DNA from: Ilumatobacteraceae bacterium
GTDB taxonomy: Bacteria; Actinomycetota; Acidimicrobiia; Acidimicrobiales; Ilumatobacteraceae
Direction: 5' to 3'
Assembly (NCBI GenBank): GCA_033344875.1
Contig: JAWPMO010000001.1
Span: 2,257,595-2,321,594, forward strand
Length of the DNA stretch: 64,000 nucleotides
In this document: positions 25,634-51,130 of the stretch, one piece after another
Layout of the letters: each line of letters begins with the position of its first letter
Position numbering within the stretch: position 1 is the first letter of the stretch
Notes under the pieces: model-generated
Databases searched by the model: none
Told to the model about the DNA's origin: nothing
Seen by the model: only the letters and a program-made list of their open reading frames with translations
Translations under genes and position numbers: made by a program

Positions 25634-26935
25634 ATGGCCACCTCGAAACCCCGCCGCACCTGGCCGCAACGACTCACGTTCGTCACCGTCATCGTCGCCT
25701 CGCTGGCGTGTTTCGCCACCGCCGCTGGCCTCGCGGCCGGACAGTGGGTGCTCTCCCAGCGACGCCTCGTCGACATCGATCCGGTCGATCCCGCCACGCT
25801 GAACGCCTCGGGGGACGGCCCGACGATCATCCTGCCCGGAGCGACGACGACGCTGCCGTCAGACGCCGGCGCACCGACGACCAGCATCGTGCTCGCCGAA
25901 CCCGACGCCGCGAACTTCCTCGTGGTCGGGTCGGACAACGGCGGCTGCAGCGACCAGATCGGCACCGGCGACCGCGACGACCTGGGCGAGCGCAGCGACA
26001 CGATCATGGTCTGGCGTGCCAACCCCGAGACCAACCAGCTCGCCGTCCTCTCCTTCCCACGCGACCTCTACGTCGACATCGGCGGCCGGCGCGATCGCAT
26101 CAACACCGCCTATCGCCGCGACGACCCGACTCGACTGATCGAGACCATCGCCGCCAACTTCGGCGTACCGGTCGACCACTACGTGCAGGTCGACTTCTGC
26201 GCATTCCGCGAACTCGTCAACTCCGTCGGCGGTGTCGAAGTGCCGTTCGCCATGCCGGCGCGCGACCGCCGCAGCGGCCTGGCGGTGCCCACCACCGGTT
26301 GTGTCAACCTCGAGGGCGACATGGCACTCGCGTACGTGCGGTCCCGCCACTACGAGTACGAGGATCCGGCGGGCAGCGGCAACTGGGAACAGGACGGCAC
26401 GTCCGACTTCGGGCGGATCGCACGCCAGCAGGATTTCCTGCGCCGCGTCGTCGCGAAGGTGATCAACGACGGTCTGACCTCGCCGAGCGTCGCGTCGGCG
26501 CTGATCACCACCAACCGGAAGTACCTCGTGACCGACACCGGCCTGACCGTGAACCGGATGCTCGAGTTCGCCAACACGCTGCGGCGGCTCGACCCGGCCG
26601 ACATCACGACCTACCGCATCGAGTCGTCGAGCGAGACACTCTCCAACGGCGACAAGGTCGAGCGTCCCCGCATCGGTGGCAGCAACATGCAGGCGATCCT
26701 GTCGGTGTTCTCCGGACAGGCTCGCCTCGCCGACGCTCCCGATCAGGTCTTCGCGACCACCACCACCGCCGCGCCCCGCACGACGACCACGACCTCACCC
26801 GACAACGGGTCGAGTGCCGACGAGACCACGGAGGACACCACCGACGAGAGCGTCACGACGACGACGTTGCCGGTGATCGAAGCCGAGGAGAACACGGTCG
26901 GGATCGTTCCCGACCGCGACTCGATCTGCAACTGA
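25634..26935 (+). CDS. LytR-CpsA-Psr (LCP) family cell-wall ligase
   Basis: The 433-residue protein has a short cytoplasmic N-terminus, one transmembrane helix (residues about 13-35) and an extracytoplasmic LCP domain: FLVVGSDN, ERSDTIMVWRANP, VLSFPRDLYVDI, RINTAYR, VDHYVQVDF, then GCVNLEGDMALAYVRSRH with the phosphate-binding arginines. LCP enzymes move polyprenyl-phosphate-linked glycopolymers onto peptidoglycan. A Thr/Ser-rich acidic tail follows the domain and ends in Cys-Asn. Next to an L,D-transpeptidase it forms a small cell-wall pair on the + strand. Confidence 0.92.
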   Translation: MATSKPRRTWPQRLTFVTVIVASLACFATAAGLAAGQWVLSQRRLVDIDPVDPATLNASGDGPTIILPGATTTLPSDAGAPTTSIVLAEPDAANFLVVGSDNGGCSDQIGTGDRDDLGERSDTIMVWRANPETNQLAVLSFPRDLYVDIGGRRDRINTAYRRDDPTRLIETIAANFGVPVDHYVQVDFCAFRELVNSVGGVEVPFAMPARDRRSGLAVPTTGCVNLEGDMALAYVRSRHYEYEDPAGSGNWEQDGTSDFGRIARQQDFLRRVVAKVINDGLTSPSVASALITTNRKYLVTDTGLTVNRMLEFANTLRRLDPADITTYRIESSSETLSNGDKVERPRIGGSNMQAILSVFSGQARLADAPDQVFATTTTAAPRTTTTTSPDNGSSADETTEDTTDESVTTTTLPVIEAEENTVGIVPDRDSICN

Positions 26936-26943
26936 TCGACGGG

Positions 26944-27966
26944 TCAGCGTTCGAGCACCCGTGACATCGCAGCGATGATCGTCGAGGGGCCGTCGACGGT
27001 CGTCCATCTCGCGCCGACGGCCTCGGCCAGCTCGGCGGCCTCGTCGCTGTCGCCCTCCGGGGCGATCACGATCAACTCGTCGAGGCCCATCGCGGCGCCG
27101 ACGACATCGCCCGGTTCCGTCGACCGACAATCCGACAGCAGGATCGTGACCTGCCGTGACGCCGACGACGCCCTGAGCTGCGCTCCGGCGGCCAGCAGCG
27201 CCCCGGCGACGTCGGTGGTGCCGTGGCCGCGCAGCGCCAGCACACGGTCGATCACATCGTCGACCGACCGGGTCTCCCACATGGCCTTCGGGGCGACGAC
27301 ATCGCGAGCGAAGCACAGCACCGCGTACTCGCCTTCGGCGCGAGCGGCGACCGCTGCGGCCGACAGCGCCGCCGTCGCGAGCGGCGCACCGTGCATCGAA
27401 CCGCTGCGGTCGACGACGAGACACCATGCGGTGGCCGGCTTCGCCCAGGCTCTGACGAGCAGGTCGTCCGGGTCGATCGCGCGCTGCTCGGCGCGCGCCT
27501 GCACGAGCGCATCGAGACTGCCGTCGACGTCGAGATCGCCGCGGTCGGGGCGGTAGCTCATCGAGACGACCTTGCCGATCCCCGGCGCATCGGCGGGCTC
27601 GTGGCGCGCCAGGTCGAGGAACAGCCGTGCCGCCAACGAGCGCGCCAGTTCGCGCAGCCCGACGTCGGTGGCTCGGGTCATCTCCGCGAGCAACGCCAGT
27701 GCGTCGTCCGGATCGGCGTCGAGTGCCTCGGCGAGCGCCGCCTCGTCGAGTTCGCCCACGTCCGGTGAAACGTCGTCGAAGGTCGGGTTCGCCTCCAACT
27801 GGCGACGCGGCGTCGAACTCCGCCGAGCCTCGTCGATGATCTCGTCGGCGTCCTCCCCCGCCGCGACCGGCGGCGGGGTCAGTCCGCCGGGATCGCCCCG
27901 CTCGGGGCCGGCGCTTTTCCCGGGTCGGACGGATCGTCGGGCGACGCCTCGAACACCTGCCGCCAC
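26944..27966 (-). CDS. VWA domain protein (CoxE-like)
   Basis: The protein has a helical N-terminal half (ELDEAALAEALDADPDDALALLAEMTRA onward) and a C-terminal von Willebrand factor A domain with an intact metal site: VVDRSGSMHG, the later LRGHGTTDVAGAL threonine, and LLSDCRS. It is the usual partner of a MoxR AAA+ ATPase in a chaperone/metal-insertion pair. The start is uncertain. GTG 27966 overlaps the ATPase gene by 88 bases; a CTG at 27882 would form a CTGA overlap with its stop; a later GTG near VGELDEAAL would also keep the VWA domain. Confidence 0.8.
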   Translation of the reverse strand: MAAGVRGVARRSVRPGKSAGPERGDPGGLTPPPVAAGEDADEIIDEARRSSTPRRQLEANPTFDDVSPDVGELDEAALAEALDADPDDALALLAEMTRATDVGLRELARSLAARLFLDLARHEPADAPGIGKVVSMSYRPDRGDLDVDGSLDALVQARAEQRAIDPDDLLVRAWAKPATAWCLVVDRSGSMHGAPLATAALSAAAVAARAEGEYAVLCFARDVVAPKAMWETRSVDDVIDRVLALRGHGTTDVAGALLAAGAQLRASSASRQVTILLSDCRSTEPGDVVGAAMGLDELIVIAPEGDSDEAAELAEAVGARWTTVDGPSTIIAAMSRVLER

Positions 27967-28799
27967 AGCTCGGTCACGATCGCCTCGGGATCGCGATGGC
28001 ACCCTTCACGCACGCGGATCCGACCCGAGAGCGCCACCAGGGCTGCATCGAGCGAGACCTCGGGGTCGGTGATCGGACGGCGACGGACCTGGCCGAGCGA
28101 GACAGCGACCGCGCACATGTCGATCGCCCCTCGCACCGACGAGCCGATCCTGACGTCGGCGTGCTCACGGGTCAGACGGACGAGCTCGACCGTGCGCGCG
28201 GCCCAGTCGGCGTCGACATCGGGTTGGTGCCGGGTCGTGATCGCCGCCTCGTCGGCCGCGTCCTGGTAGCCCACCGAGAGGCGACACACCCGGTCGTAGA
28301 TCGCCGAGGAGATCCGCGCCGTCCCGATCGCGTCGAACGGGTTCATCGCCGCCACCAGCCTGAAGCCGGGCTCGGCCCCGATCGTGCCGAGACGTGGCAC
28401 GTTGATCTCGCGCTCGCTCATCACCGAGACCAGCACGTTGAGGGTCTCCTCGGGAACACGGTTCAGTTCTTCGACGTACAGCAGCGCGCCCCCGCGGAGC
28501 GCGGCGACGAGCGGTCCGTCGACGAAGACGTCGGCGTCGTAGCCCTCGGCGAGCACACGCGCGGGGTCGAAGTGGCCGATCAGCCGGGAGGGTGTGAGTT
28601 CGGCGTTGCCCTCCACGAACTCGAAGCCGATGCCGAGCTCGCGAGCGACCGCCCGCAGCAGCGTCGACTTGCCGGTGCCCGGCGGACCTTCGAGCAGCAT
28701 GTGCCGGTCGGCAGCCAGCGCCGCGACGACGAGATCGATCTCGCGTCGCCGCCCCACGACCTGGGTCGTGAGACGGTCGACGAGTTCGTGGTGGTTCAC
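27879..28799 (-). CDS. MoxR-type AAA+ ATPase
   Basis: The 306-residue protein has Walker A LLEGPPGTGKST, a MoxR-style Walker B YVEELNRVPEETLN, sensor 1 AAMNPFD and a C-terminal lid domain. MoxR ATPases work with VWA proteins to activate or metallate client enzymes. The GTG start at 28799 lies 14 bases after the stop of the NDMA-dependent alcohol dehydrogenase gene on the same strand, and the VWA gene overlaps its 3' end, so the three genes look like one transcript. That arrangement makes the dehydrogenase a candidate client. Confidence 0.88.
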   Translation of the reverse strand: MNHHELVDRLTTQVVGRRREIDLVVAALAADRHMLLEGPPGTGKSTLLRAVARELGIGFEFVEGNAELTPSRLIGHFDPARVLAEGYDADVFVDGPLVAALRGGALLYVEELNRVPEETLNVLVSVMSEREINVPRLGTIGAEPGFRLVAAMNPFDAIGTARISSAIYDRVCRLSVGYQDAADEAAITTRHQPDVDADWAARTVELVRLTREHADVRIGSSVRGAIDMCAVAVSLGQVRRRPITDPEVSLDAALVALSGRIRVREGCHRDPEAIVTELWRQVFEASPDDPSDPGKAPAPSGAIPAD

Positions 28800-28813
28800 C
28801 CGGTGCGCAACCG

Positions 28814-29938
28814 TCAGTCGAACAGGATCACGCCGCGGATGTTCTCACCGTTGCGCATCGCGTCGTAGCCCTCGTTGATCTGATCGAGGGTGTAGGTCTT
28901 CGTGACCAGGTCGTCGAGGTTGAGCTGACCCTGGAGGTACAGCTCCATCAGGCGTGGAATGTCGCGACGCATGTTCGCGGATCCGAACCACGAGCCGACG
29001 ATCTGCTTCTCGAACGCCGAGAGGAACAGGCCGGGAACGGCGATGCTGCTCTCGGTCACGGGGTGGATGTTGGTCACCACGACGCGCGATCCCTTGCCCG
29101 CCATCCAGAACGCCTCGCCGAGCGCGTCGCCGTCGCCGGTGCCCATTGCCATGATCACCTTGTCGTAGCCACGATCCCAGGTGGCGTTGCCGAGGTCGGC
29201 GGTCGCCTCGGCCATCGACGCGTACGTGTGCGTCGCTCCGAACTCCATCGCCTTCTCGCGCTTGAACTCCACCGGGTCGATCGCGGCGACGACGCGCGCG
29301 CCCGCCATCTTCGCTCCCTGGACGGCGTTCGCCCCGATCCCGCCGACGCCGACGACGGCCACGTAGTCGCCGGGCTGGACGTCGGCGGTGTTGACCGCGG
29401 AGCCCCATCCGGTCACGACACCGCAACCGAGCAGGCACGCCTTGTCGAGCGGCCAATCCTTGTCGATCTTCACACAGCTCGCCTCGTTGACGACGGTGTG
29501 CTCGGCGAACGTGCCGAGCAGGCACATCAGCCCGAGGTCGTGGCCGTCGTGACTGTGGTGTCGTGCCGTGCCGTCACCGATCTGCATGCCGGCGCCGAGG
29601 CCCGCAGCATCGTTGCAGAGATTCGACTTGCCACGCGCACACCATTCGCACCGGCCACAGGCCGGGATGAAGCCGAACACGACGTGGTCACCCGGTTCGA
29701 GGCCGCTGACCCCTTCACCCACCTCCAGCACGACGCCGGACCCCTCGTGTCCACCGATCATCGGCGGGCCCGGAGCGGCACCGGCGAGATCGCCGGTGAG
29801 AACGTGCTCGTCGGAGTGGCACATGCCCGACGCGGCGAGTTTCACGAGCACCTCACCCTTCTTGGGTGGATCGAGTTCGATCTCCTCGACGCTCCAGGGG
29901 GTGTTGAGTTCGCGAAGAATGGCAGCGCGTGTCTTCAT
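28814..29938 (-). CDS. NDMA-dependent (mycofactocin-dependent) alcohol dehydrogenase
   Basis: The 374-residue zinc-dependent MDR dehydrogenase opens MKTRAAILRELNTPWSVEEI, the hallmark of the NDMA-dependent class in which NAD stays bound and mycofactocin is thought to reoxidise it. Catalytic zinc ligands include Cys40 and His64-Glu65; structural zinc ligands are Cys94, Cys97, Cys100 and Cys108. The NAD site is GVGGIGANAVQG. The C-terminal DQINEGYDAMRNGENIRGVI is also typical. The mycofactocin genes lie at 43-49 kb in the same window. It leads a set with MoxR and VWA genes and is divergent from a hypothetical gene 60 bases away. Confidence 0.9.
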   Translation of the reverse strand: MKTRAAILRELNTPWSVEEIELDPPKKGEVLVKLAASGMCHSDEHVLTGDLAGAAPGPPMIGGHEGSGVVLEVGEGVSGLEPGDHVVFGFIPACGRCEWCARGKSNLCNDAAGLGAGMQIGDGTARHHSHDGHDLGLMCLLGTFAEHTVVNEASCVKIDKDWPLDKACLLGCGVVTGWGSAVNTADVQPGDYVAVVGVGGIGANAVQGAKMAGARVVAAIDPVEFKREKAMEFGATHTYASMAEATADLGNATWDRGYDKVIMAMGTGDGDALGEAFWMAGKGSRVVVTNIHPVTESSIAVPGLFLSAFEKQIVGSWFGSANMRRDIPRLMELYLQGQLNLDDLVTKTYTLDQINEGYDAMRNGENIRGVILFD

Positions 29939-42953: not shown

Positions 42954-43346
42954 GTGGTCTGGGTGATCGGTCTCGTGGTGCTGGTCGTCGCGGTCGCGCT
43001 CGTTGCGATCGTGCTCCGACGTCGCTCCGCGTCCGGCACCCGCCCGGCGGCACCCGCTGCCGCAACCGTCGCCGCGCCACCGCCCGACGTCCCCATGACC
43101 GACCTCGAAGCTGCCCTCGCCAAGGTCACCGACCGCACGGGTCGTCCGATCCGCGACCACATCGACGCCGAGACACAGCACGTCGACGACCTCCGTGTGC
43201 CCGACGACACCGGGCCCCTGCTCCGCCGCGCGCTCGATCACGTCGAACAGCACCATCCCGAACAGTCCCACCCCGAAGAGCCCGGTGCCGAACCGTCCGG
43301 CACTGCCGACGCCGCCACCGATCGCGCGGCACGCGACGCCGACTGA
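42954..43346 (+). CDS. Small membrane-anchored hypothetical protein, 130 residues
   Basis: An N-terminal transmembrane helix (VWVIGLVVLVVAVALVAIVL) is followed by RRR, an Ala/Pro-rich spacer, a short helical region (TDLEAALAKVTDRTGRPIRDHIDAETQ) and an acidic low-complexity tail. I do not recognise it. GTG 42933, directly after the permease stop, would add seven residues, but the promoter position favours 42954, which puts the helix at the very N-terminus. It lies 68 bases upstream of mftA on the same strand. Confidence 0.6.
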   Translation: MVWVIGLVVLVVAVALVAIVLRRRSASGTRPAAPAAATVAAPPPDVPMTDLEAALAKVTDRTGRPIRDHIDAETQHVDDLRVPDDTGPLLRRALDHVEQHHPEQSHPEEPGAEPSGTADAATDRAARDAD

Positions 43347-43402
43347 CCAACCGCCGACGCACCCCGGTGGGGGCGGGTACCGGCCGGGTTCGGCGTGCGC
43401 AG

Positions 43403-43408
43403 TACGCT
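43403..43408 (+). promoter_or_regulatory. Leaderless -10 element of mftABC
   Basis: TACGCT ends six bases before the mftA ATG at 43415. The cofactor-precursor operon would therefore start at or next to the mftA start codon. Confidence 0.55.
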
Positions 43409-43414
43409 GGGCCC

Positions 43415-43537
43415 ATGGACCAGGACACCACCGCCCACGAGGCCGACGACGGCAGCTCCGTCACGGCCGACGCGCCCGAGGCCGAAGAACTGTTGATCGA
43501 GGAGATCTCGATCGACGGCATGTGCGGCGTGTACTGA
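43415..43537 (+). CDS. mftA: Mycofactocin precursor peptide
   Basis: This 40-residue acidic peptide ends in ISIDGMCGVY, the diagnostic mycofactocin C-terminus. MftC decarboxylates and cross-links the final Val-Tyr, and the dipeptide is later cut free. The leader (EELLIEE just before the core) is the part bound by MftB. The stop is four bases before the mftB start, so mftA, mftB and mftC form one unit. The motif is intact, so the peptide should be functional. Confidence 0.96.
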   Translation: MDQDTTAHEADDGSSVTADAPEAEELLIEEISIDGMCGVY

Positions 43538-43541
43538 GCGC

Positions 43542-43829
43542 ATGGCGACGCTCGAGGCGACCACACTCGCGGAGCGCTCTCTCGAACTCCACCCTCAGGT
43601 GGCACTGCGGCCCGAACCCTTCGGTGCCCTCGCGTACCACTACGACACACGCCGGCTCATCTTCCTGAAGCACCCCGACGTCGTCCGGGTCGTGCGAGCG
43701 CTCGCCGATCACCCATCGGTCGCCGCGACGCTCGACGCGTGCGACGTCGCCGGCGAACGCCGGCCGGCATTCGAACGTGCGCTGGCCTCGCTCCTCGCAT
43801 CGGAGATCCTGCATGACCGCCCTCGTTGA
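43542..43829 (+). CDS. mftB: Mycofactocin peptide chaperone (RRE protein)
   Basis: The 95-residue protein matches MftB in size and pattern: LHPQVALRPEPFGALAYHYDTRRLIFL followed by a winged-helix-like half (VVRVVRALADHPSVAATL). It presents MftA to the radical SAM enzyme MftC. The gene overlaps mftC by 17 bases. Confidence 0.93.
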   Translation: MATLEATTLAERSLELHPQVALRPEPFGALAYHYDTRRLIFLKHPDVVRVVRALADHPSVAATLDACDVAGERRPAFERALASLLASEILHDRPR

Positions 43830-44958
43830 ACAACTCAAGACCGGCCTCGACGCACCCATCTGTCTCACCTGGGAGCTGACCTACGCCTGCAACCTCGAGT
43901 GCGTCCACTGTCTGAGCTCGTCGGGACGACGCGACCCACGCGAGCTGTCCACCGACGAGGCCAAGGCGGTGCTCGACGAGCTGCACGACCTCCAGGTGTT
44001 CTACATCAACATCGGTGGTGGCGAGCCGATGATCCGTCGTGACTTCTTCGAGCTGGTCGAGTACTCGATCAGCAAGGGCGTCGGCGTCAAGTTCTCGACC
44101 AACGGCGCGTTCATCGACGCCGAGAAGGCCCGGCGCCTGGCGGCCATGGACTATCTCGACGTCCAGATCAGCCTCGACGGCACCGACGCCGTCACCAACG
44201 ACGCCGTGCGCGGCGACGGTTCGTACGCGACCGCGATCCGTGCGATGGACCACCTGCGCGACGCCGGCTTCGTCGAGCGCAACGGGCCGTTCAAGATCTC
44301 GGTGGTCGTCACCCGCCACAACGTCGGCCAGCTCGACGAGTTCAAGGCGCTCGCCGACGCCTACGGCGCCCAACTCCGGATCACCCGCCTTCGTCCGTCG
44401 GGCCGCGGCGCCGACAGCTGGCACGATCTCCACCCCACCAACGCCCAGCAGCGTCAGATCTACGAGTGGCTGCTGCTGCACGGCGAACAGGTGCTCACCG
44501 GCGACTCGTTCTTCCATCTCAACGCGCTCGGCGACGAGAACCTCCCGGGGCTCAACCTGTGCGGCGCCGGTCGCGTCGTCTGCCTGATCGACCCGATCGG
44601 CGACGTCTACGCCTGTCCATTCGTGATCCACGACGAGTTCCGGGCGGGCAACGTCCGAGACACCGGCGGGTTCAGCCGTGTGTGGAAACACAGCGATCTG
44701 TTCCGCGACCTGCGCGAACCCCAGTCGGCCGGAGCGTGCGCCTCGTGTGGTTCGTTCGATGCCTGCCAGGGCGGCTGCATGGCCGCCAAGTTCTTCACCG
44801 GCATCCCGCTCGACGGTCCCGACCCCGAGTGCGTCAGCGGTCACGGCGAGCTCGCCCTCGCGCACGTCGGCGACGGGTCCGCCCCGCGCCCGATGATGGA
44901 CCACTCCAAGCGGACCTCCCCCGTCACGCCCACCCCCGTCGCACTCGGCAGGAAGTAA
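43813..44958 (+). CDS. mftC: Mycofactocin radical SAM maturase
   Basis: The 381-residue protein has the radical SAM triad Cys26-x3-Cys30-x2-Cys33 in TYACNLECVHC, the SAM-binding NIGGGEPM loop, and a SPASM domain for two auxiliary clusters (LCGAGRVVCLIDPIGDVYACPF, then CASCGSFDACQGGC). It oxidatively decarboxylates the last Tyr of MftA and forms the Val-Tyr carbon-carbon bond. The ATG overlaps the end of mftB. plsY follows nine bases after the TAA stop, in the place where mftD usually lies. Confidence 0.96.
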   Translation: MTALVEQLKTGLDAPICLTWELTYACNLECVHCLSSSGRRDPRELSTDEAKAVLDELHDLQVFYINIGGGEPMIRRDFFELVEYSISKGVGVKFSTNGAFIDAEKARRLAAMDYLDVQISLDGTDAVTNDAVRGDGSYATAIRAMDHLRDAGFVERNGPFKISVVVTRHNVGQLDEFKALADAYGAQLRITRLRPSGRGADSWHDLHPTNAQQRQIYEWLLLHGEQVLTGDSFFHLNALGDENLPGLNLCGAGRVVCLIDPIGDVYACPFVIHDEFRAGNVRDTGGFSRVWKHSDLFRDLREPQSAGACASCGSFDACQGGCMAAKFFTGIPLDGPDPECVSGHGELALAHVGDGSAPRPMMDHSKRTSPVTPTPVALGRK

Positions 44959-44967
44959 GCCACCGAG

Positions 44968-45540
44968 ATGTGGTGGTTGCTGGTGCCACTGGCCTATCTG
45001 GTCGGCACCTTCCCGAGTGCGACGCTCGTCGCCTCGGCGAACGGCATCGACATCCGACAGGTCGGGTCGGGCAACCCGGGCGCGTCGAACGTCACCAGGG
45101 TGCTCGGTTGGCGCCGTGGCATGTGGGTGTTCGTCCTCGACGCGGCGAAGGGTGCGCTGACCGCAGGGGCCGGGTTGCTCGTCGCGGGCCGTCCGGCCGG
45201 GTACGTGCTCGGTGGCGCCGCCGTCATCGGTCACGTGTTCCCGGTGTGGAACCGCTTCCGCGGCGGCAAGGGGGTGGCGACCGGCGGCGGCATCTTCGCC
45301 TCGCTGTCTCCGCTGGTGTTCGCCCTCCTCGTCGCGCTCTGGTTCCTCATCTCGAGGGCGACCAAGACCGCCTCACTGGCCTCGCTCGTGATCGTCATCC
45401 TCCTCCCGATCGGCGTGGGCATCGTGCGTCAGGAGCTGTGGGAGGTGATCGCGACCATCGCCGTCAGCACGCTCGTGATGGCGAGACACCTCGGCAACAT
45501 CAAGCGGCTGGTCACCCGCCGCGAGCACGCGATCGGCTAA
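44968..45540 (+). CDS. plsY: Glycerol-3-phosphate acyltransferase PlsY-like
   Basis: The 190-residue membrane protein has about five helices and the three PlsY motifs: GSGNPGASN, the GGKGVAT loop within GHVFPVWNRFRGGKG, and ARHLGNIKRL near the end. It should transfer an acyl group from acyl-phosphate to glycerol 3-phosphate. Its placement nine bases after mftC, on the same strand, implies co-transcription with mycofactocin genes, which is not the usual context. It is convergent with a kinase-like gene 12 bases downstream. Confidence 0.9.
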   Translation: MWWLLVPLAYLVGTFPSATLVASANGIDIRQVGSGNPGASNVTRVLGWRRGMWVFVLDAAKGALTAGAGLLVAGRPAGYVLGGAAVIGHVFPVWNRFRGGKGVATGGGIFASLSPLVFALLVALWFLISRATKTASLASLVIVILLPIGVGIVRQELWEVIATIAVSTLVMARHLGNIKRLVTRREHAIG

Positions 45541-45552
45541 CGGCGGTCCCGG

Positions 45553-46614
45553 TCAGAACAGCGCCCGCAGGAGCGGCGTGAGATCGAGTTCGTCGAGCGC
45601 CGGCAGTTGCACGTCGACGGCGTCGTGGAGCAGGTGCTGCCAGAACTCGTACCGGAAGAAGTGACGGCCCTCGCGCACCACGTAGTTCAGGAGGAAGAAG
45701 CGGTACGCCTCGCCGAGGAACCGCACCTCGCCCTCGGTCAGCGGGAAGGCATCGTGGTACGCCTTGAGGAACATCTGGAAACGCGGTTCGAGCAGGGTGT
45801 GCGAGCCGTACGTGAAGACCGAACGGTCGCCGGTCCGGGACGACACTCGCGAGAGGAAGTAGAAGTCGAGGAGGCGCGACTCGAGACGGAACCAGTCGTA
45901 GTCCCATCGGGAGAACATCCGGAAGGAGTCGGGATCGGCCGGATCGGTCTCGACCGAGAAGTTCCCCAGGTTCCAGTCGACGAGCACCGGGATCTTCGGC
46001 CAGTAGTCGTACCCCGACTCGTGGATCGTCGTGAGCAACCGGTGAGTGTGCCGTCGCACCAGGTCGATCCGGCTGCGATCGAGGCCGAAATGGTCACGGG
46101 CGTTGCGCGACCCGAGCATCTCGAACAGGTTGACGGCGTCGCTCTTCGCCGTCTTCGACGGGGCGGGGATCATCCGCGACACGCTCGTACACGCGCGGTG
46201 GAAACGCCCGATCTCGCCCCCGAGTCGCTGCACCTGCCCCGAGGTGAGCACCTTCGGCAGGCGGTCGCGCATCTCGACCTCTTCGTAGAAGACGACCCAC
46301 ATCTCGCCGTCGTAGTAGAGGTACGGGCGACCGTCGAGCGTGAGCGCGTTGGCCATGAAGTCCTCGTACGGTCCACCGTGCAGCAGCTGGTTGGTGCGGT
46401 GCAGCCGGTCGTGGTCCTCGGCGAAGAGGAAGAACGACCCGTAGCTCGACGACTTGGCGATCACCGACGAACCGTCGTCGAGACTCAGCCGGTAGACGCG
46501 GTTGGTCGACACCATCGCGCTGAGTTCGTCGGTCGCGGCGACCCGACGATCGTCGCCGAAATCGTCCCACGCGGCGGCGATGACGTCGCGATGTCGAGCG
46601 TCGAGGAGGTCCAC
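45553..46614 (-). CDS. APH/choline-kinase-fold protein inside the mycofactocin locus
   Basis: The 353-residue protein reads like a protein-kinase-like phosphotransferase: an N-lobe with RVYRLSLDDGSSVIAKSSS (candidate nucleotide-binding Lys), then IGRFHRACTS, and a C-lobe with VDWNLGNF, where Asp213 and Asn218 match the catalytic Asp and Asn of the Brenner motif (normally HGDxxxxN), and DYDW (Asp238/Asp240) as the metal-binding acidic motif. The usual His-Gly before the catalytic Asp is Leu-Val. Substrate unknown. Start GTG 46614 is divergent from mftE, 52 bases away. Confidence 0.75.
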   Translation of the reverse strand: MDLLDARHRDVIAAAWDDFGDDRRVAATDELSAMVSTNRVYRLSLDDGSSVIAKSSSYGSFFLFAEDHDRLHRTNQLLHGGPYEDFMANALTLDGRPYLYYDGEMWVVFYEEVEMRDRLPKVLTSGQVQRLGGEIGRFHRACTSVSRMIPAPSKTAKSDAVNLFEMLGSRNARDHFGLDRSRIDLVRRHTHRLLTTIHESGYDYWPKIPVLVDWNLGNFSVETDPADPDSFRMFSRWDYDWFRLESRLLDFYFLSRVSSRTGDRSVFTYGSHTLLEPRFQMFLKAYHDAFPLTEGEVRFLGEAYRFFLLNYVVREGRHFFRYEFWQHLLHDAVDVQLPALDELDLTPLLRALF

Positions 46615-46652
46615 GGTCCAAGCCTCGCACACGGGATCGCTCGCCCCATCGC

Positions 46653-46658
46653 TAACGT
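46653..46658 (+). promoter_or_regulatory. Leaderless -10 element of mftEF
   Basis: TAACGT ends eight bases before the mftE ATG at 46667, so mftE and mftF form a second transcription unit separate from mftABC. Confidence 0.55.
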
Positions 46659-46666
46659 CGGGCGCG

Positions 46667-47320
46667 ATGGACCTCGGAGCGACGACCTGGCCCGACGTGG
46701 GTGCCCCGATCGTCGTCGTGCCCGTCGGCTCCTGCGAGCAACACGGCCCCCACCTGCCGCTGCACACCGACACGACGATCGCCACCGCGCTCGCCCGATC
46801 GCTCGCCGCGCACCGCGACGACTGCGTCGTGGCCCCGCCGATCACCATCTCGGCCAGCGGCGAGCACGCCGGCTTCCCGGGAACGTTGTCGATCGGCACG
46901 TCGGTCATGGCCGACGTCGTCGTCGAGCTGGCGCGTTCGGCCGACTGGGCCGCCGGCGTCGTGTTCGTGAACGGTCACGGCGGCAACCACGCCGCGATGC
47001 AGCGCGCCGCCGAGGTGTTCGAGCACGAGCAGCGGCGGGTGCTGATCTGGTGGCCGCAGCAGGACGGGGGCGACCCGCACGCCGGGCGCACCGAGACGTC
47101 GCTGATGCTGGCACTCGCACCCGACGAGGTGCGTCGCGACCGAAGCGAGCCGGGGCCCGTGCCGCCCATGTCGGAACTGGTGCGGCACGGCGTCAAGGCG
47201 CTCAGTCCGAACGGTGTGCTCGGCGACCCGGCCGGTGCCGACGAAGCCCAAGGCGCAGCGATGTTCGCACAGCTGACCGAGCAGCTCCGCGCCGACGTCG
47301 CCGCGTGGGCGACGCCGTGA
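46667..47320 (+). CDS. mftE: Mycofactocin peptidase (creatininase fold)
   Basis: The 217-residue protein has the creatininase-type metal site: Glu24 and His26 in GSCEQHGPHLPLHTDT, with Asp35, then the NGHGGNH loop. It cuts the modified Val-Tyr dipeptide from MftA. Its junction with mftF (GTGA overlap) secures the assignment over other creatininase-family roles. It is somewhat shorter than mycobacterial MftE. The distantly related creatininase-family gene at 376-1149 belongs to another pathway. Confidence 0.92.
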   Translation: MDLGATTWPDVGAPIVVVPVGSCEQHGPHLPLHTDTTIATALARSLAAHRDDCVVAPPITISASGEHAGFPGTLSIGTSVMADVVVELARSADWAAGVVFVNGHGGNHAAMQRAAEVFEHEQRRVLIWWPQQDGGDPHAGRTETSLMLALAPDEVRRDRSEPGPVPPMSELVRHGVKALSPNGVLGDPAGADEAQGAAMFAQLTEQLRADVAAWATP

Positions 47321-48609
47321 CCGTTCGCCGTTACCGGTTCGACGACGGGGCGCAACGACACGGTCACGTACTGATCGGCGGATCGCCCCTGAAGTTGTTC
47401 CGGCTCACCGAGGCCGGGTCGCGGGTCGTCGACCGGATCGAGGCCGGTGAGGCGGTCGACGAATCGTCGCTCGTGATGTCGCTGGTCGACGCCGCCGTGG
47501 TGCATCCGGTCGCCGAACCTCCCGGGCGGTTCACACCAGACGACGTGACGATCGTGACGCCGGCGTTCGGTCGGGCACCGTACGTCGATCCCGGCACCAT
47601 CGTCGTCGACGACGGCTCCCGACCGGCGATCCCCGACGCCACGGTCCGGCTCGACCACAACCGAGGTCCCGGAGCCGCCCGGAACGCCGGCCTCCGACGC
47701 GTCACGACACCGCTGGTCGCCTTCGTCGATGCCGACATCCGACTCCCCGTCGGCTGGCTCGACGGTCTGCTCCCCCACTTCGACGACGACCGATTGGCGC
47801 TGGTCGCGCCACGGGTTCGGTCGGCGCCCGGACCGTCGCTCCTCGACCGGTACGAACGGGAACACAGCCCGCTCGACCTCGGACCGCGTCCCGGGCGTGT
47901 GCGGGCGGGCAGCCGCATCGGCTACCTACCGGCCGCCGTCATCGTGTGCCGCACCGACGCCGTCCGAGAGGTCGGCGGCTTCGACGAGGACCTGCGCTTC
48001 GGCGAGGACGTCGACCTCGTGTGGCGGCTGGACGAGGCGGGCCACCGCATCAGGTACGAGCCGACCTCGAGCGTGAGCCACGACCCACGGCCGAACTGGC
48101 GAACCTGGTTCCGACAACGGGTCGGGTACGGATCATCGGCCGCACCGCTCTCGCGTCGGCATCACGGTGCGCTCGCCCCGTTGCGAATGAGCGGATGGAG
48201 CGTTGGGGCCTGGGTCTCGGGCCTGTTCGCCCACCCGGTGATCGGCGCCACGATCGGTGTCGGCTCGGCCGCCGCCCTCATCCGCAAGCTCGACGAGGTG
48301 CCACCCCGTGCCGCCTTCCTGCTCGCGTGGCGGGGCAACCTCGACGCAGGCGGCCAGATCGCCGAGGCGGTCCGGCGCGTCTGGTGGCCGGTCCTCCTGC
48401 TCGTCGCGTTGCGATCCCGCCGCGCTCGGTCGGGCCTACTCCTCGCGGCGCTGGCGTCGCGCCATCCGATCCGGTTGGCCGACGACGTGGCCTACTCGGT
48501 CGGGGTCTGGCGTGGCGTCGTCCGCGAGCGGACCGTCGCTCCGCTCGTCCCCGAGGTCAGTTCGTGGCCGGGACGCCGTCCGACATGGCGACGCGGAGAC
48601 GCTCGCTGA
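47317..48609 (+). CDS. mftF: Mycofactocin glycosyltransferase
   Basis: The 430-residue protein has a short N-terminal domain (LKLFRLTEAGSRVVDRI), then a GT2 domain: TIVVDDGS, NRGPGAARNAGL, FVDADIRLP with Asp138 and Asp140 as the DxD-like metal site, and FGEDVDLVWRLDEAGHRIRYEP. C-terminal hydrophobic segments follow. MftF adds a chain of beta-1,4-glucose to premycofactocin. The start is GTG 47317 in a GTGA overlap. Its 3' end overlaps the convergent DUF4395 gene by 53 bases. Confidence 0.92.
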   Translation: MTVRRYRFDDGAQRHGHVLIGGSPLKLFRLTEAGSRVVDRIEAGEAVDESSLVMSLVDAAVVHPVAEPPGRFTPDDVTIVTPAFGRAPYVDPGTIVVDDGSRPAIPDATVRLDHNRGPGAARNAGLRRVTTPLVAFVDADIRLPVGWLDGLLPHFDDDRLALVAPRVRSAPGPSLLDRYEREHSPLDLGPRPGRVRAGSRIGYLPAAVIVCRTDAVREVGGFDEDLRFGEDVDLVWRLDEAGHRIRYEPTSSVSHDPRPNWRTWFRQRVGYGSSAAPLSRRHHGALAPLRMSGWSVGAWVSGLFAHPVIGATIGVGSAAALIRKLDEVPPRAAFLLAWRGNLDAGGQIAEAVRRVWWPVLLLVALRSRRARSGLLLAALASRHPIRLADDVAYSVGVWRGVVRERTVAPLVPEVSSWPGRRPTWRRGDAR

Positions 48610-49051
48610 TGTCGTTGCAGTCGTCGCACTCCCAGAAGAACCGGTAGGCGATGCAGCCGAGGCAGACCGCGAATGCCGACTCGAGCGTCGCCGCGATCGC
48701 GAGGAGCCCGATCACGACCACCGATACCGTCGGCGCATCGGCGAGCCAGGCGACGGCTGCGACCGAGGTGAACGTGACGCCGATCGCCTGCGCGAAACGT
48801 TTCGGCGGGCCGGGCACGAAGCGATGCTCGACCGAGGTGAGCCGTGGCGTGACGATTCGGGTCGCGAACTGCCCGAGCGGGCTCAGCGTCGGCCCGGTCG
48901 CGACTCGGGCGACGAAGCCGTAGACGAGCGGCACCAACAGCCATCCCTGGCCGGTGATCAGGAATGCAACCGCCTGCAGCACCACCCCGGCAGCGACGAC
49001 GCGCGCCGATGTCTCGTTGACCGGATCGGGAAAGCTGAAGAGCTGCCGCAC
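48557..49051 (-). CDS. DUF4395 membrane protein
   Basis: The 164-residue protein matches DUF4395: FPDPVNETSARVVAAGVVL at the start, three or four helices, the PGPPKRFAQAIG loop and CLGCIAYRFFW. An extra CDDCNDIS segment follows, giving two CxxC pairs near the C-terminus. It is often near thioredoxin-like proteins elsewhere, but none is here. The start is GTG 49051, preceded at seven bases by TAACGT. Confidence 0.85.
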   Translation of the reverse strand: MRQLFSFPDPVNETSARVVAAGVVLQAVAFLITGQGWLLVPLVYGFVARVATGPTLSPLGQFATRIVTPRLTSVEHRFVPGPPKRFAQAIGVTFTSVAAVAWLADAPTVSVVVIGLLAIAATLESAFAVCLGCIAYRFFWECDDCNDISERLRVAMSDGVPATN

Positions 49052-49058
49052 GTCCGAA

Positions 49059-49064
49059 ACGTTA
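49059..49064 (-). promoter_or_regulatory. Leaderless -10 element of the DUF4395 gene
   Basis: TAACGT on the reverse strand, seven bases before GTG 49051. Confidence 0.5.
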
Positions 49065-49140
49065 TCCGGATGAACTTGATCGGACTACTCGGGTATCGGT
49101 GCCGCAGCGGGCCCGAACGGCCGCTCTCCCCTCCACCCGC

Positions 49141-49146
49141 TACCGT
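49141..49146 (+). promoter_or_regulatory. Leaderless -10 element of the alanine-racemase-like gene
   Basis: TACCGT eight bases before GTG 49155. The divergent DUF4395 promoter is about 80 bases away. Confidence 0.5.
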
Positions 49147-49154
49147 GCCTCGGC

Positions 49155-50072
49155 GTGACGATCCGACTGACCGTCGACCGCGACCGCTGGTGGCAGCACG
49201 CCACCGACGTCGCTGCCTCCGTGGAGGGACTCGTCCCCGTCGTCAAGGGCAACGGCTACGGATTCGGTCGGAACAACCTGGCGATCGCCGCCAGCCGACT
49301 CAGCCCGATCATCGCCGTCGGCACCGTGCACGAACTCGACGGGCTCCCCGACGACGTCACGGTGGTGGTGTTGACCCCGACGCTCACACCACCGTCCGAC
49401 ACCGCCGCGGTGCTGACGGTAGGCAGCCACGGGCATCTCGACGCCCTCCAGGGCTGGGAAGGCCGCGTGATCGTCAAGCTCGAGTCGCCGATGCATCGCT
49501 TCGGCGGATCGGTCGGGCTGGTCGCCGAGGCACAGCGTCGCGGGCTCCGCACGGTCGGCGTGGCGATCCATCCGCCGCTCGCCGGCACCGACGAGGACCG
49601 ACTCGGCTTCATCACCGAGCAACTCCCCCACATCGACCCCACCCTCGACGTGTGGCTCAGTCACCTGTCGCCGGGCGCCTACGAACTGCTGCCCGACACC
49701 CACCGGTACAAGTTGCGGATCGGGACCTACCTGTGGCACGGCGACCGCGAAGCGATCCGGCTCGAGGCCGACGTGCTCGACACCCGCCCTGCCGAAGCGG
49801 GCAGCACCGCCGGATACCGCCTCAACACGATCGACGGCGACTCGACGATCGTGATGATCGGCGCCGGAAGCGCTGCCGGCGTGGCACCGCTCCCCGACGG
49901 CCGCAGCCCGTTCCACTTCGCCCGCCGCCGGCTCGAACTGATCGAGCCGCCGCACATGCACACGTCGATGGCACTCGTGCCGTTCGGCGAACCGTGTCCG
50001 ATCGTCGGTGATTGGGTCGATCTCCAACGTCCGTTGACCATGACGTCGGCCGACGAACTCCGATGGATCTGA
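49155..50072 (+). CDS. Alanine-racemase-like PLP protein
   Basis: The 305-residue protein has the N-terminal barrel motif VPVVKGNGYGFGR with the PLP lysine, a VKLESPMHRFG segment at the place of the VKVDTGMxR motif of alanine racemase, and a C-terminal beta domain ending MALVPFGEPCPIVGDWVDL. It is about 60 residues shorter than Alr, and the GYGDGY motif carrying the second catalytic tyrosine is not recognisable (AGYRLNT lies nearby). It may be a racemase of another amino acid or an inactive homologue. It overlaps the next gene by ten bases. Confidence 0.7.
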   Translation: MTIRLTVDRDRWWQHATDVAASVEGLVPVVKGNGYGFGRNNLAIAASRLSPIIAVGTVHELDGLPDDVTVVVLTPTLTPPSDTAAVLTVGSHGHLDALQGWEGRVIVKLESPMHRFGGSVGLVAEAQRRGLRTVGVAIHPPLAGTDEDRLGFITEQLPHIDPTLDVWLSHLSPGAYELLPDTHRYKLRIGTYLWHGDREAIRLEADVLDTRPAEAGSTAGYRLNTIDGDSTIVMIGAGSAAGVAPLPDGRSPFHFARRRLELIEPPHMHTSMALVPFGEPCPIVGDWVDLQRPLTMTSADELRWI

Positions 50073-51130
50073 GCTCACGCCGGCCGGGTCCCGACGTCGT
50101 CAGGGCGGTCGCGATGGCCGGCGTGGTCATGATGAACTTCCACGGCTACCTCATCCTGCGCGGCGCCCGTCGCGACGGCGGCGCCGTGTACGACCTGTTC
50201 GATCCGTGGACGGGTCCACTGTCGACACGATTCGCGGCGACGTTCGTGCTCACGGCCGGCGTCGGGGTGACGCTGATGACCCGGTCGTCGATCGGCGATC
50301 CCGCACGCGTCACGGAGATGCGATGGCGGCTGGTGCGGCGCGGCGTGCTCCTCTACGCCGGTGGCCTGCTGTTCGACTTCGTCTGGCCCGGCACCATCCT
50401 GCCGTTCTACGGCGCGATGTTCGTGCTCGCCGCACTGATGTTCACGATGCGGATCCGCTGGGTCGTGCTGATCGGCGTCGCCGCGGCCATCGCCGGGTGG
50501 TCGATCGAGTGGTGGAGGTTCGAGCGTGAGCTCGACGGGGCCTCGACCACTTGGCTCACCGATCCGGGCGCACTGTCGCCCAGGGGGCTGCTGTTCGACG
50601 TCTTCGTCAACGGCACCCACCCGCTGCTGCCGTGGCTCGCGTTCTTCTGCGCGGGCATCGTGCTCGGTCGGCTGTTGACCACCGCCTGGTGGCGGCCCGC
50701 CGCCGTGGTCGCCGGCTTCGCGCTGTACTCGACGGCGACCGTCGCCAACACGCTCGGCACCGGCCAACGCAGTCTCGTCCTGCTCAGCGACGACCCGTTC
50801 GACCGTGGTCTCGTGTACGTCGCCAGCGCGCTCGGCACCGCGTTGATCGCGTTCGGGGCGATCTCCTGGATCGCCGACCGCTTCGAGCGGACCGCCGCCG
50901 TCGACACGCTCCAGCGTGCCGGTCAGATGTCGCTGACGATCTACCTCGGTCACGCGCTCCTGTTCAACCTGCTGGTCGATTGGCTCGATGTCGTCGAGCC
51001 TCGCGGCGTCGGTACGGCGCTCGCCGCCACCGTGGTGTACTGGCTTCCCGCCACCGCACTCGCCGTGATGTACCAGCGCCGGCACGGCCGGGGGCCGGCC
51101 GAGCGCCTCTATCGACGACTCACCGCCTGA
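50063..51130 (+). CDS. DUF418/heparan-acetyltransferase-like membrane protein
   Basis: The 355-residue protein has about nine to ten membrane helices, beginning RPGPDVVRAVAMAGVVMMNFHGYL, typical of the acyltransferase-3/DUF1624/DUF418 (YeiB) clan, and ending with QRAGQMSLTIYLGHALLF, a DUF418-type signature. Such proteins are thought to move acyl groups across or at the membrane. Overlap with the racemase-like gene implies joint translation, so the pair may modify an envelope component, but this is inference. Confidence 0.8.
   Translation: MDLSSRRPGPDVVRAVAMAGVVMMNFHGYLILRGARRDGGAVYDLFDPWTGPLSTRFAATFVLTAGVGVTLMTRSSIGDPARVTEMRWRLVRRGVLLYAGGLLFDFVWPGTILPFYGAMFVLAALMFTMRIRWVVLIGVAAAIAGWSIEWWRFERELDGASTTWLTDPGALSPRGLLFDVFVNGTHPLLPWLAFFCAGIVLGRLLTTAWWRPAAVVAGFALYSTATVANTLGTGQRSLVLLSDDPFDRGLVYVASALGTALIAFGAISWIADRFERTAAVDTLQRAGQMSLTIYLGHALLFNLLVDWLDVVEPRGVGTALAATVVYWLPATALAVMYQRRHGRGPAERLYRRLTA

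Follow-up and report, generated by a model that had tools for sequence, protein, structure and literature searches.

Mutual exclusion of mftD and an OYE/ETF/FixCX cassette among mycofactocin-bearing Ilumatobacteraceae: a dispersed locus and a candidate second premycofactocin synthase

A mycofactocin biosynthesis locus was analyzed in a 64,000-nucleotide stretch of an Ilumatobacteraceae bacterium genome (GenBank assembly GCA_033344875.1, contig JAWPMO010000001.1, positions 2,257,595 to 2,321,594), henceforth referred to as the window. The window holds mftA, mftB, mftC, mftE and mftF (Table 1). We consider it likely that the organism possesses a complete, dispersed pathway, that the step of MftD is an exchangeable module, and that a cassette of old yellow enzyme (OYE), electron transfer flavoprotein (ETF) and FixC/FixX-type genes is a second, probably quinone-linked, premycofactocin synthase. 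This reading is built on gene content, the mutual exclusion of mftD and the cassette, their shared positions and a constant MftA core, all of which were observed directly in the genomes.

The oxidation step in the window genome and its relatives

The preliminary description of the window had listed mftD, mftG and mftR as absent from it. All seven matches of the genome to the mftD model indeed fall elsewhere, and a search of the rest of the genome located a full-length mftD at 3270984–3272132 (682.7 bits, cut-off 470.85). This gene stands alone, 968,540 bases from mftC, in a genome assembled as a single contig of 4.97 Mb; the pathway is therefore dispersed and not broken. A congener that is also a single contig has mftD among shared neighbors (for example two genes of ABC transporters and a series encoding ribosomal and single-strand-binding proteins, as read by eye from the translations), so the stand-alone site is inherited in the genus. 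The absence of mftG from the window also held, with no GMC match there at an expect value (E) of 1e-60 or better. The best GMC match in the whole genome scored 254.8 bits against a cut-off of 387.45, the narrower models TIGR04542 and NF038210 not being searched. For mftR, TIGR03968 was unmatched at E 1e-15 or better in 10 of the 60 window proteins, which were those scanned, and the genome was not searched. MftG over the cut-off was likewise missing from most relatives.

Relatives were screened in a family sample of 101 genomes and a phylum sample of 296 genomes. Family carriers over cut-off numbered 83 for mftC, 71 for mftE, 66 for mftF and 34 for mftD, the last rising to 35 with an edge fragment in G031 (370 bits). 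The mycofactocin-type etfB (mft_etfB) was found in 44 of the 101 genomes, over cut-off in 35 and at 148–197 bits in nine, and the next-highest score is 125 bits, from a second fragment in G057. Among the 83 family genomes with mftC, mftD was present in 35, etfB in 42, both in none and neither in six. The second OYE family, OYE_2, passed its cut-off in 42 of the 101 genomes and in no mftD-bearing genome of the family. The same pattern was observed in the phylum sample, in which 36 genomes carry mftC (mftD 29, etfB 6, both 0, neither 1), and among the 26 mftC genomes from that sample that lie outside the family (mftD 22, etfB 3, both 0, neither 1).

The first OYE family and mftG were compared in 80 genomes. 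OYE_1 (TIGR03996) passed its cut-off of 628 bits in 28 of the 31 etf-type genomes, and the remaining three hold edge fragments. None of the 49 mftD-type genomes passed it, their best score being 306 bits. By contrast, mftG exceeded its cut-off in only two of the 80, one of each type, so that the presence of the cassette does not simply mirror that of mftG. What the cassette excludes is mftD and not mftG. A role for the ETF cassette as a replacement of mftG was dropped on the same count, since hardly any genome of either type has mftG.

The MftD reaction is regarded as central to the pathway, yet 48 of the 83 family mftC genomes have no recognised mftD, and any rule that requires MftD will therefore miss over half of them. 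The redox-cofactor rule of antiSMASH 6.1.1 does require the MftD profile, according to the accessible text of BGCFlow (PMC11162802). In M. smegmatis, deletion of mftD is reported to abolish mycofactocins and to cause accumulation of 3-amino-5-[(p-hydroxyphenyl)methyl]-4,4-dimethyl-2-pyrrolidinone (AHDP), as far as the available portion of that study goes (PMC7491314); mftD-less producers would therefore need a substitute. TIGR03966 was noted in most but not all mycofactocin species in the accessible part of Haft 2011 (PMC3023750).

Incomplete assemblies or an overlooked divergent MftD could mimic such an absence, and the scattered layout of the window genes could be a meaningless rearrangement. 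Many of the relatives are indeed drafts, and the six family genomes with neither marker are 78–93% complete, but whole genera lack mftD, including the 97–99% complete G010, G008 and G022. Scores to the MftD model fall from 608 bits for complete MftD to 342 or less for other members of the LldD family, nothing but the G031 fragment (370 bits) lying between them, and on this ground a diverged MftD in the mftD-less genomes was dropped as a candidate. Chance loss would also not yield 42 etfB carriers with none among the 35 mftD genomes. This explanation is accordingly regarded as very improbable.

Composition, position and exchange of the cassette

The cassette found in mftD-less mycofactocin genomes comprises OYE_1, OYE_2, etfA, fixC, fixX and etfB. 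Synteny was read in selected loci, namely 20 family mftC loci, eight loci outside the family and 20 mftE loci of mftD-less genomes; tblastn was used for seven that came from low-GC genomes and had poor gene calls. The order etfA-fixC-fixX-etfB with mftE was present in 13 of the 20 mftE loci (11 by gene calls, L075 and L076 by tblastn). In the remaining seven, at least one gene is missing from the gene calls or lies beyond the stretch, and the etf genes of L077 are on another contig. The EtfA protein matches NF038209 (mft_etfA) with 343 bits (cut-off 240), EtfB matches TIGR04503 (mft_etfB) with 209 bits (cut-off 200), and the OYE_2 protein encoded upstream of the etf/fix genes matches TIGR03997 with 950 bits (cut-off 793), while the FixC- and FixX-like proteins score below the cut-offs of their models. 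The proteins belong to the OYE, ETF, FixC and FixX families, and no homology of the cassette to MftD was found. A protein with pyrroloquinoline quinone (PQQ)-type propeller repeats is encoded 5' of mftE in four etf-type loci (L060, L064, L065 and L074).

The cassette and mftD occupy the same position. Within genus g13, mftD lies directly 5' of mftE in all five mftD-type genomes (four on the same strand, one divergent), and etf/fix genes fill that same slot in both etf-type genomes. All 31 cases of etfB and mftE on a common contig place etfB upstream in the same orientation, at no more than 250 bases in 18 of them and never beyond 6.1 kb; the mftE matches of G020 and G080 in this count are partial and below cut-off. 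Both types also occur in genus g2. The seven mftC-bearing genomes of this genus (G001, G071, G028, G045, G059, G083 and G094) have no mftE over cut-off, and another peptidase may release the core there.

A contiguous mftC-OYE1-OYE2-etfA-fixC-fixX-etfB run was read in L078, L140 (Streptomyces sp. AC512_CC834) and L141 (Kutzneria sp. 744), and the same order with one extra gene between the OYEs in L139 and L165. In L078, which belongs to another class by its kinship codes, and in L139 and L165, mftE follows the cassette directly. Named strains such as those of L140 and L141 count as mftD-less on a check of the stretch around the locus, among the matches listed. L143, a 4.5 kb contig of a Thermogemmatispora metagenome-assembled genome, encodes counterparts of the mycofactocin-type EtfA, FixC, FixX and EtfB (51% identity for FixC), a hint that the cassette may extend outside Actinomycetota; no mft genes were seen on this short contig.

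Exchange between mftD and the cassette appears to have been repeated. A tree was built from 86 MftC proteins, 78 from the 83 family mftC genomes and eight others, five genomes with partial mftC being left out, and the type changes at least 11 times on it. One genome, G079, has two mftC genes over cut-off (on C25 and C6), and the C25 copy is the longest branch of the tree.

The product of both types is probably the same cofactor, judging from the conserved precursor and the dehydrogenases that accompany it. MftA is encoded upstream in all 86 mftC loci and ends in IDGMCGVY in 85 and in IDGLCGVY in one. Dehydrogenases of the type dependent on N,N-dimethyl-4-nitrosoaniline (NDMA) are encoded near mftC in five of eight mftD-type and 11 of 12 etf-type family loci, and all five of the dehydrogenase proteins scanned passed TIGR03989. 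It is this combination of a constant MftA core with NDMA-type dehydrogenases beside both types that suggests a common product. The mftD-less loci could instead make another final product that keeps the AHDP amine, the cassette then being the redox partner of a variant cofactor, and what the cassette contains, and in which order, is indeed new relative to MftD systems. That possibility is considered doubtful in view of the shared MftA core and of the same family of dehydrogenases on both sides. The accessible text of BGCFlow (2024, PMC11162802) also reports 17 clusters of Saccharopolyspora that lack mftD but contain TIGR03997, and refers to a study in which methylated mycofactocin was detected in S. 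erythraea.

Proposed chemistry and relation to known systems

The window carries the mftABC-plsY and mftEF modules, and the stand-alone mftD, 968 kb away, would supply the oxidation; mftD may lie loose from the other mft genes because the oxidation step is an exchangeable module in this group. That step would exist in two versions, the single flavin mononucleotide (FMN) enzyme MftD and the six-gene cassette. In the second version, an OYE-family flavoenzyme with FMN and a 4Fe-4S motif would oxidize the AHDP amine to an imine, which would hydrolyze to the redox-active alpha-keto amide. Electrons would pass from the OYE to the mycofactocin-specific ETF and on through FixC/FixX to quinone, whereas MftD is taken to use oxygen. 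A slight preference is given to the full form of this proposal, in which two non-homologous premycofactocin synthases have repeatedly replaced each other, the OYE_1/OYE_2/EtfAB/FixCX cassette oxidizes AHDP with delivery of electrons to quinone, and production of the cofactor is coupled to respiration and may be independent of oxygen. The reaction, the part that either OYE may play in it and the direction of electron flow are inferred.

OYE_2 matches NCR, 2,4-dienoyl-CoA reductase (249 bits), histamine dehydrogenase (206 bits) and trimethylamine dehydrogenase (179 bits), and its alignments to histamine dehydrogenase and dienoyl-CoA reductase span most of the protein. Trimethylamine dehydrogenase is present together with an ETF in PDB 1o94. 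OYE_1 matches dienoyl-CoA reductase and NCR. Both OYEs keep a C-x2-C-x3-C-x11-C motif like that of dienoyl-CoA reductase, and in both a Ser aligns with the Tyr of the reductase in ..SEGYL.., a residue that we take to be catalytic. The best match of the cassette FixC is the FixC of PDB 7koe (7koe_C, 249 bits), and EtfA scores 90 bits to 7koe_B.

Several observations weigh against the proposed synthase role or limit the exclusion on which it draws. Amine dehydrogenases are more distant from both OYEs than 2,4-dienoyl-CoA reductase and NCR are, OYE_1 has no histamine or trimethylamine dehydrogenase match at E 1e-30, and the conversion of AHDP to premycofactocin (PMFT) by the cassette is putative. 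Genomes with mftC and neither marker exist, six in the family (of which four carry OYE_2) and G279 in the phylum sample, whose mftC is distant (335 bits); G004 and G049 carry etfB without mftC over cut-off. In the phylum sample, scores cover the best few candidates of each genome. Kinship is ignored in the Fisher test of exclusion within the family (p 1.5e-17). Five independent pairs on supported branches of the MftC tree are all opposite in type (p 0.0625), a number too small to reach 0.05, and the tree is a quick one with long branches flagged.

By homology, ETF and FixC/FixX are electron carriers to quinone, and MftG is reported, in the accessible part of the account, to link mycofactocin to respiration in mycobacteria (PMC11778925). 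The cassette might thus act as an MftG analogue that reoxidizes reduced mycofactocin into the respiratory chain, with another enzyme deaminating AHDP in the same organisms. We regard this as unlikely because the cassette excludes mftD and not mftG and because it occupies the mftD position. With mftG over cut-off in so few of the 80 genomes, mftD-type relatives that lack MftG evidently do not need the cassette. Reoxidation and synthase roles could also coexist in one cassette.

Compared with the mycobacterial mftABCDEF system, the likeness lies in MftA, MftB, MftC, MftE and MftF, all over their cut-offs in the window, and in an MftD elsewhere in the genome. The differences are that the genes do not form one block, mftD being 968 kb away and plsY following mftC, that mftG was not found over its cut-off, and that mftD is absent from about half of the mftC genomes of the family. 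The mftD-less Saccharopolyspora clusters described in PMC11162802 are alike in having no mftD in the cluster, OYE_2 (TIGR03997) and an MftA ending in IDGMCGVY. The available portions of that account are silent on OYE_1, ETF and FixC/FixX, on mutual exclusion with mftD in genome comparisons and on a swap at one position. Four NCBIfam families, mft_etfA (NF038209), mft_etfB (TIGR04503), mycofact_OYE_1 (TIGR03996) and OYE_2 (TIGR03997), already tie cassette proteins to mycofactocin by name; the names give no role, and the way they are listed draws no connection to a missing MftD. The cassette resembles FixABCX/EtfABCX (PDB 7koe) in its FixC and EtfA matches and its FixX-like ferredoxin, but differs in its order, etfA-fixC-fixX-etfB, inside mycofactocin loci, and in its tie to OYE_1 and OYE_2. 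OYE_2 also aligns with trimethylamine and histamine dehydrogenases, but NCR and dienoyl-CoA reductase score higher.

A literature search, mostly outside subscription papers, returned no report joining mycofactocin with an electron transfer flavoprotein or with an OYE pair plus ETF. Within the reach of this search, what is new is that mftD and the cassette exclude each other, that the cassette is described in full, that it shares a position with mftD and that the two have been exchanged repeatedly; the mycofactocin link of the families, from their NCBIfam names, and the lack of mftD together with OYE_2 in Saccharopolyspora are already known. If the cassette is a second synthase, it would explain how mftD-less organisms make the cofactor and would give a role to four protein families named only as mycofactocin-associated, and a respiration-linked, possibly oxygen-independent route would become testable.

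The window locus and its layout across the family

Table 1 Mycofactocin genes and associated features in the window, with positions counted from its first nucleotide.
Feature	Position	Strand	Evidence
VWA (CoxE-like) protein, same block as the two features below	26944–27798	-	PF05762, 34 bits (cut-off 26.4)
MoxR-type AAA ATPase, adjoining the alcohol dehydrogenase	27879–28799	-	PF07728, 90.6 bits
NDMA-dependent alcohol dehydrogenase, presumed mycofactocin client	28814–29938	-	TIGR03989, 527 bits (cut-off 440)
mftA, precursor peptide, 40 residues	43415–43537	+	TIGR03969, 51.7 bits (cut-off 25); C-terminus IDGMCGVY
mftB, chaperone	43542–43829	+	TIGR03967, 104 bits (cut-off 33)
mftC, radical S-adenosylmethionine maturase	43813–44958	+	TIGR03962, 618 bits (cut-off 265)
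plsY, glycerol-3-phosphate acyltransferase	44968–45540	+	TIGR00023, 143 bits (cut-off 137)
353-residue protein, family unassigned, kinase-like by motif only	45553–46614	-	Between plsY and mftE
mftE, peptidase	46667–47320	+	TIGR03964, 262.5 bits (cut-off 172)
mftF, glycosyltransferase	47317–48609	+	TIGR03965, 350 bits (cut-off 280)

The five mft genes had been described as intact, and each of their products exceeds its curated NCBIfam cut-off. The gap between mftC and mftE is filled, as had also been noted, by plsY and a reverse-strand gene, and the contrast drawn with the single mycobacterial block is borne out by the distance of mftD from mftC. The same preliminary description had assigned mftE its own -10 element. 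Neither this nor a reading of the layout as a peculiarity of this genome, with plsY and the kinase-like gene as breakers of an intact block, gained support. Separate mftC and mftD, and plsY after mftC, are common in the family. Of the 20 family loci, 19 have a co-oriented plsY no more than 6.7 kb 3' of mftC, the distance being 110 bases or less in 13, whereas no plsY follows mftC in the eight loci outside the family. Splitting of an ancestral block by plsY and the kinase-like gene was thus dropped as an explanation, plsY being the standard neighbor of mftC, and mftABC adjoins mftEF with plsY in G070 and G005 as well. For mftE, a simple scan of 43000–48700 gave no promoter-like site where shuffled sequence gave 0.2, a result of little weight for a high-GC actinobacterium.

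The layout of the window is ordinary for the family. Where mftD is present, mftC and mftD share a contig in nine of 35 genomes, 14.6 kb to 3.6 Mb apart; they lie on different contigs in the other 26, in which a short spacing across a contig end is possible. In all five congeners with mftC, mftE is far away or on another contig, and the close mftABC/mftEF spacing of the window is a tighter form within its genus. In the family as a whole, mftABC-plsY, mftEF and the oxidation step each act as a module of their own. The synteny comparison also showed the same mftABC-plsY-kinase order in the single-contig congener; as the source genome is itself one contig, an assembly artefact is unlikely.

The 353-residue protein had no match in NCBIfam, Pfam or PDB sequences, and its predicted structure is too poor to use in a comparison with APH/choline-kinase-like kinases (mean predicted local distance difference test score 44), so that a kinase fold was set aside. 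Homologues 74% and 64% identical to it are also encoded near mftC in L039 and L047. The NDMA-dependent alcohol dehydrogenase gene stands in one row with genes for a LytR-type protein, VWA and MoxR (25634–29938); this block lies about 14 kb upstream of the mft genes of the window and adjoins mftABC on its upstream side in several relatives. After mftF come genes for a DUF4395 protein, a protein resembling alanine racemase and a DUF418 protein (48557–51130), an arrangement shared by many family loci. A second creatininase-family protein, encoded at 484–1149, scores 66 bits to the MftE model (cut-off 172).

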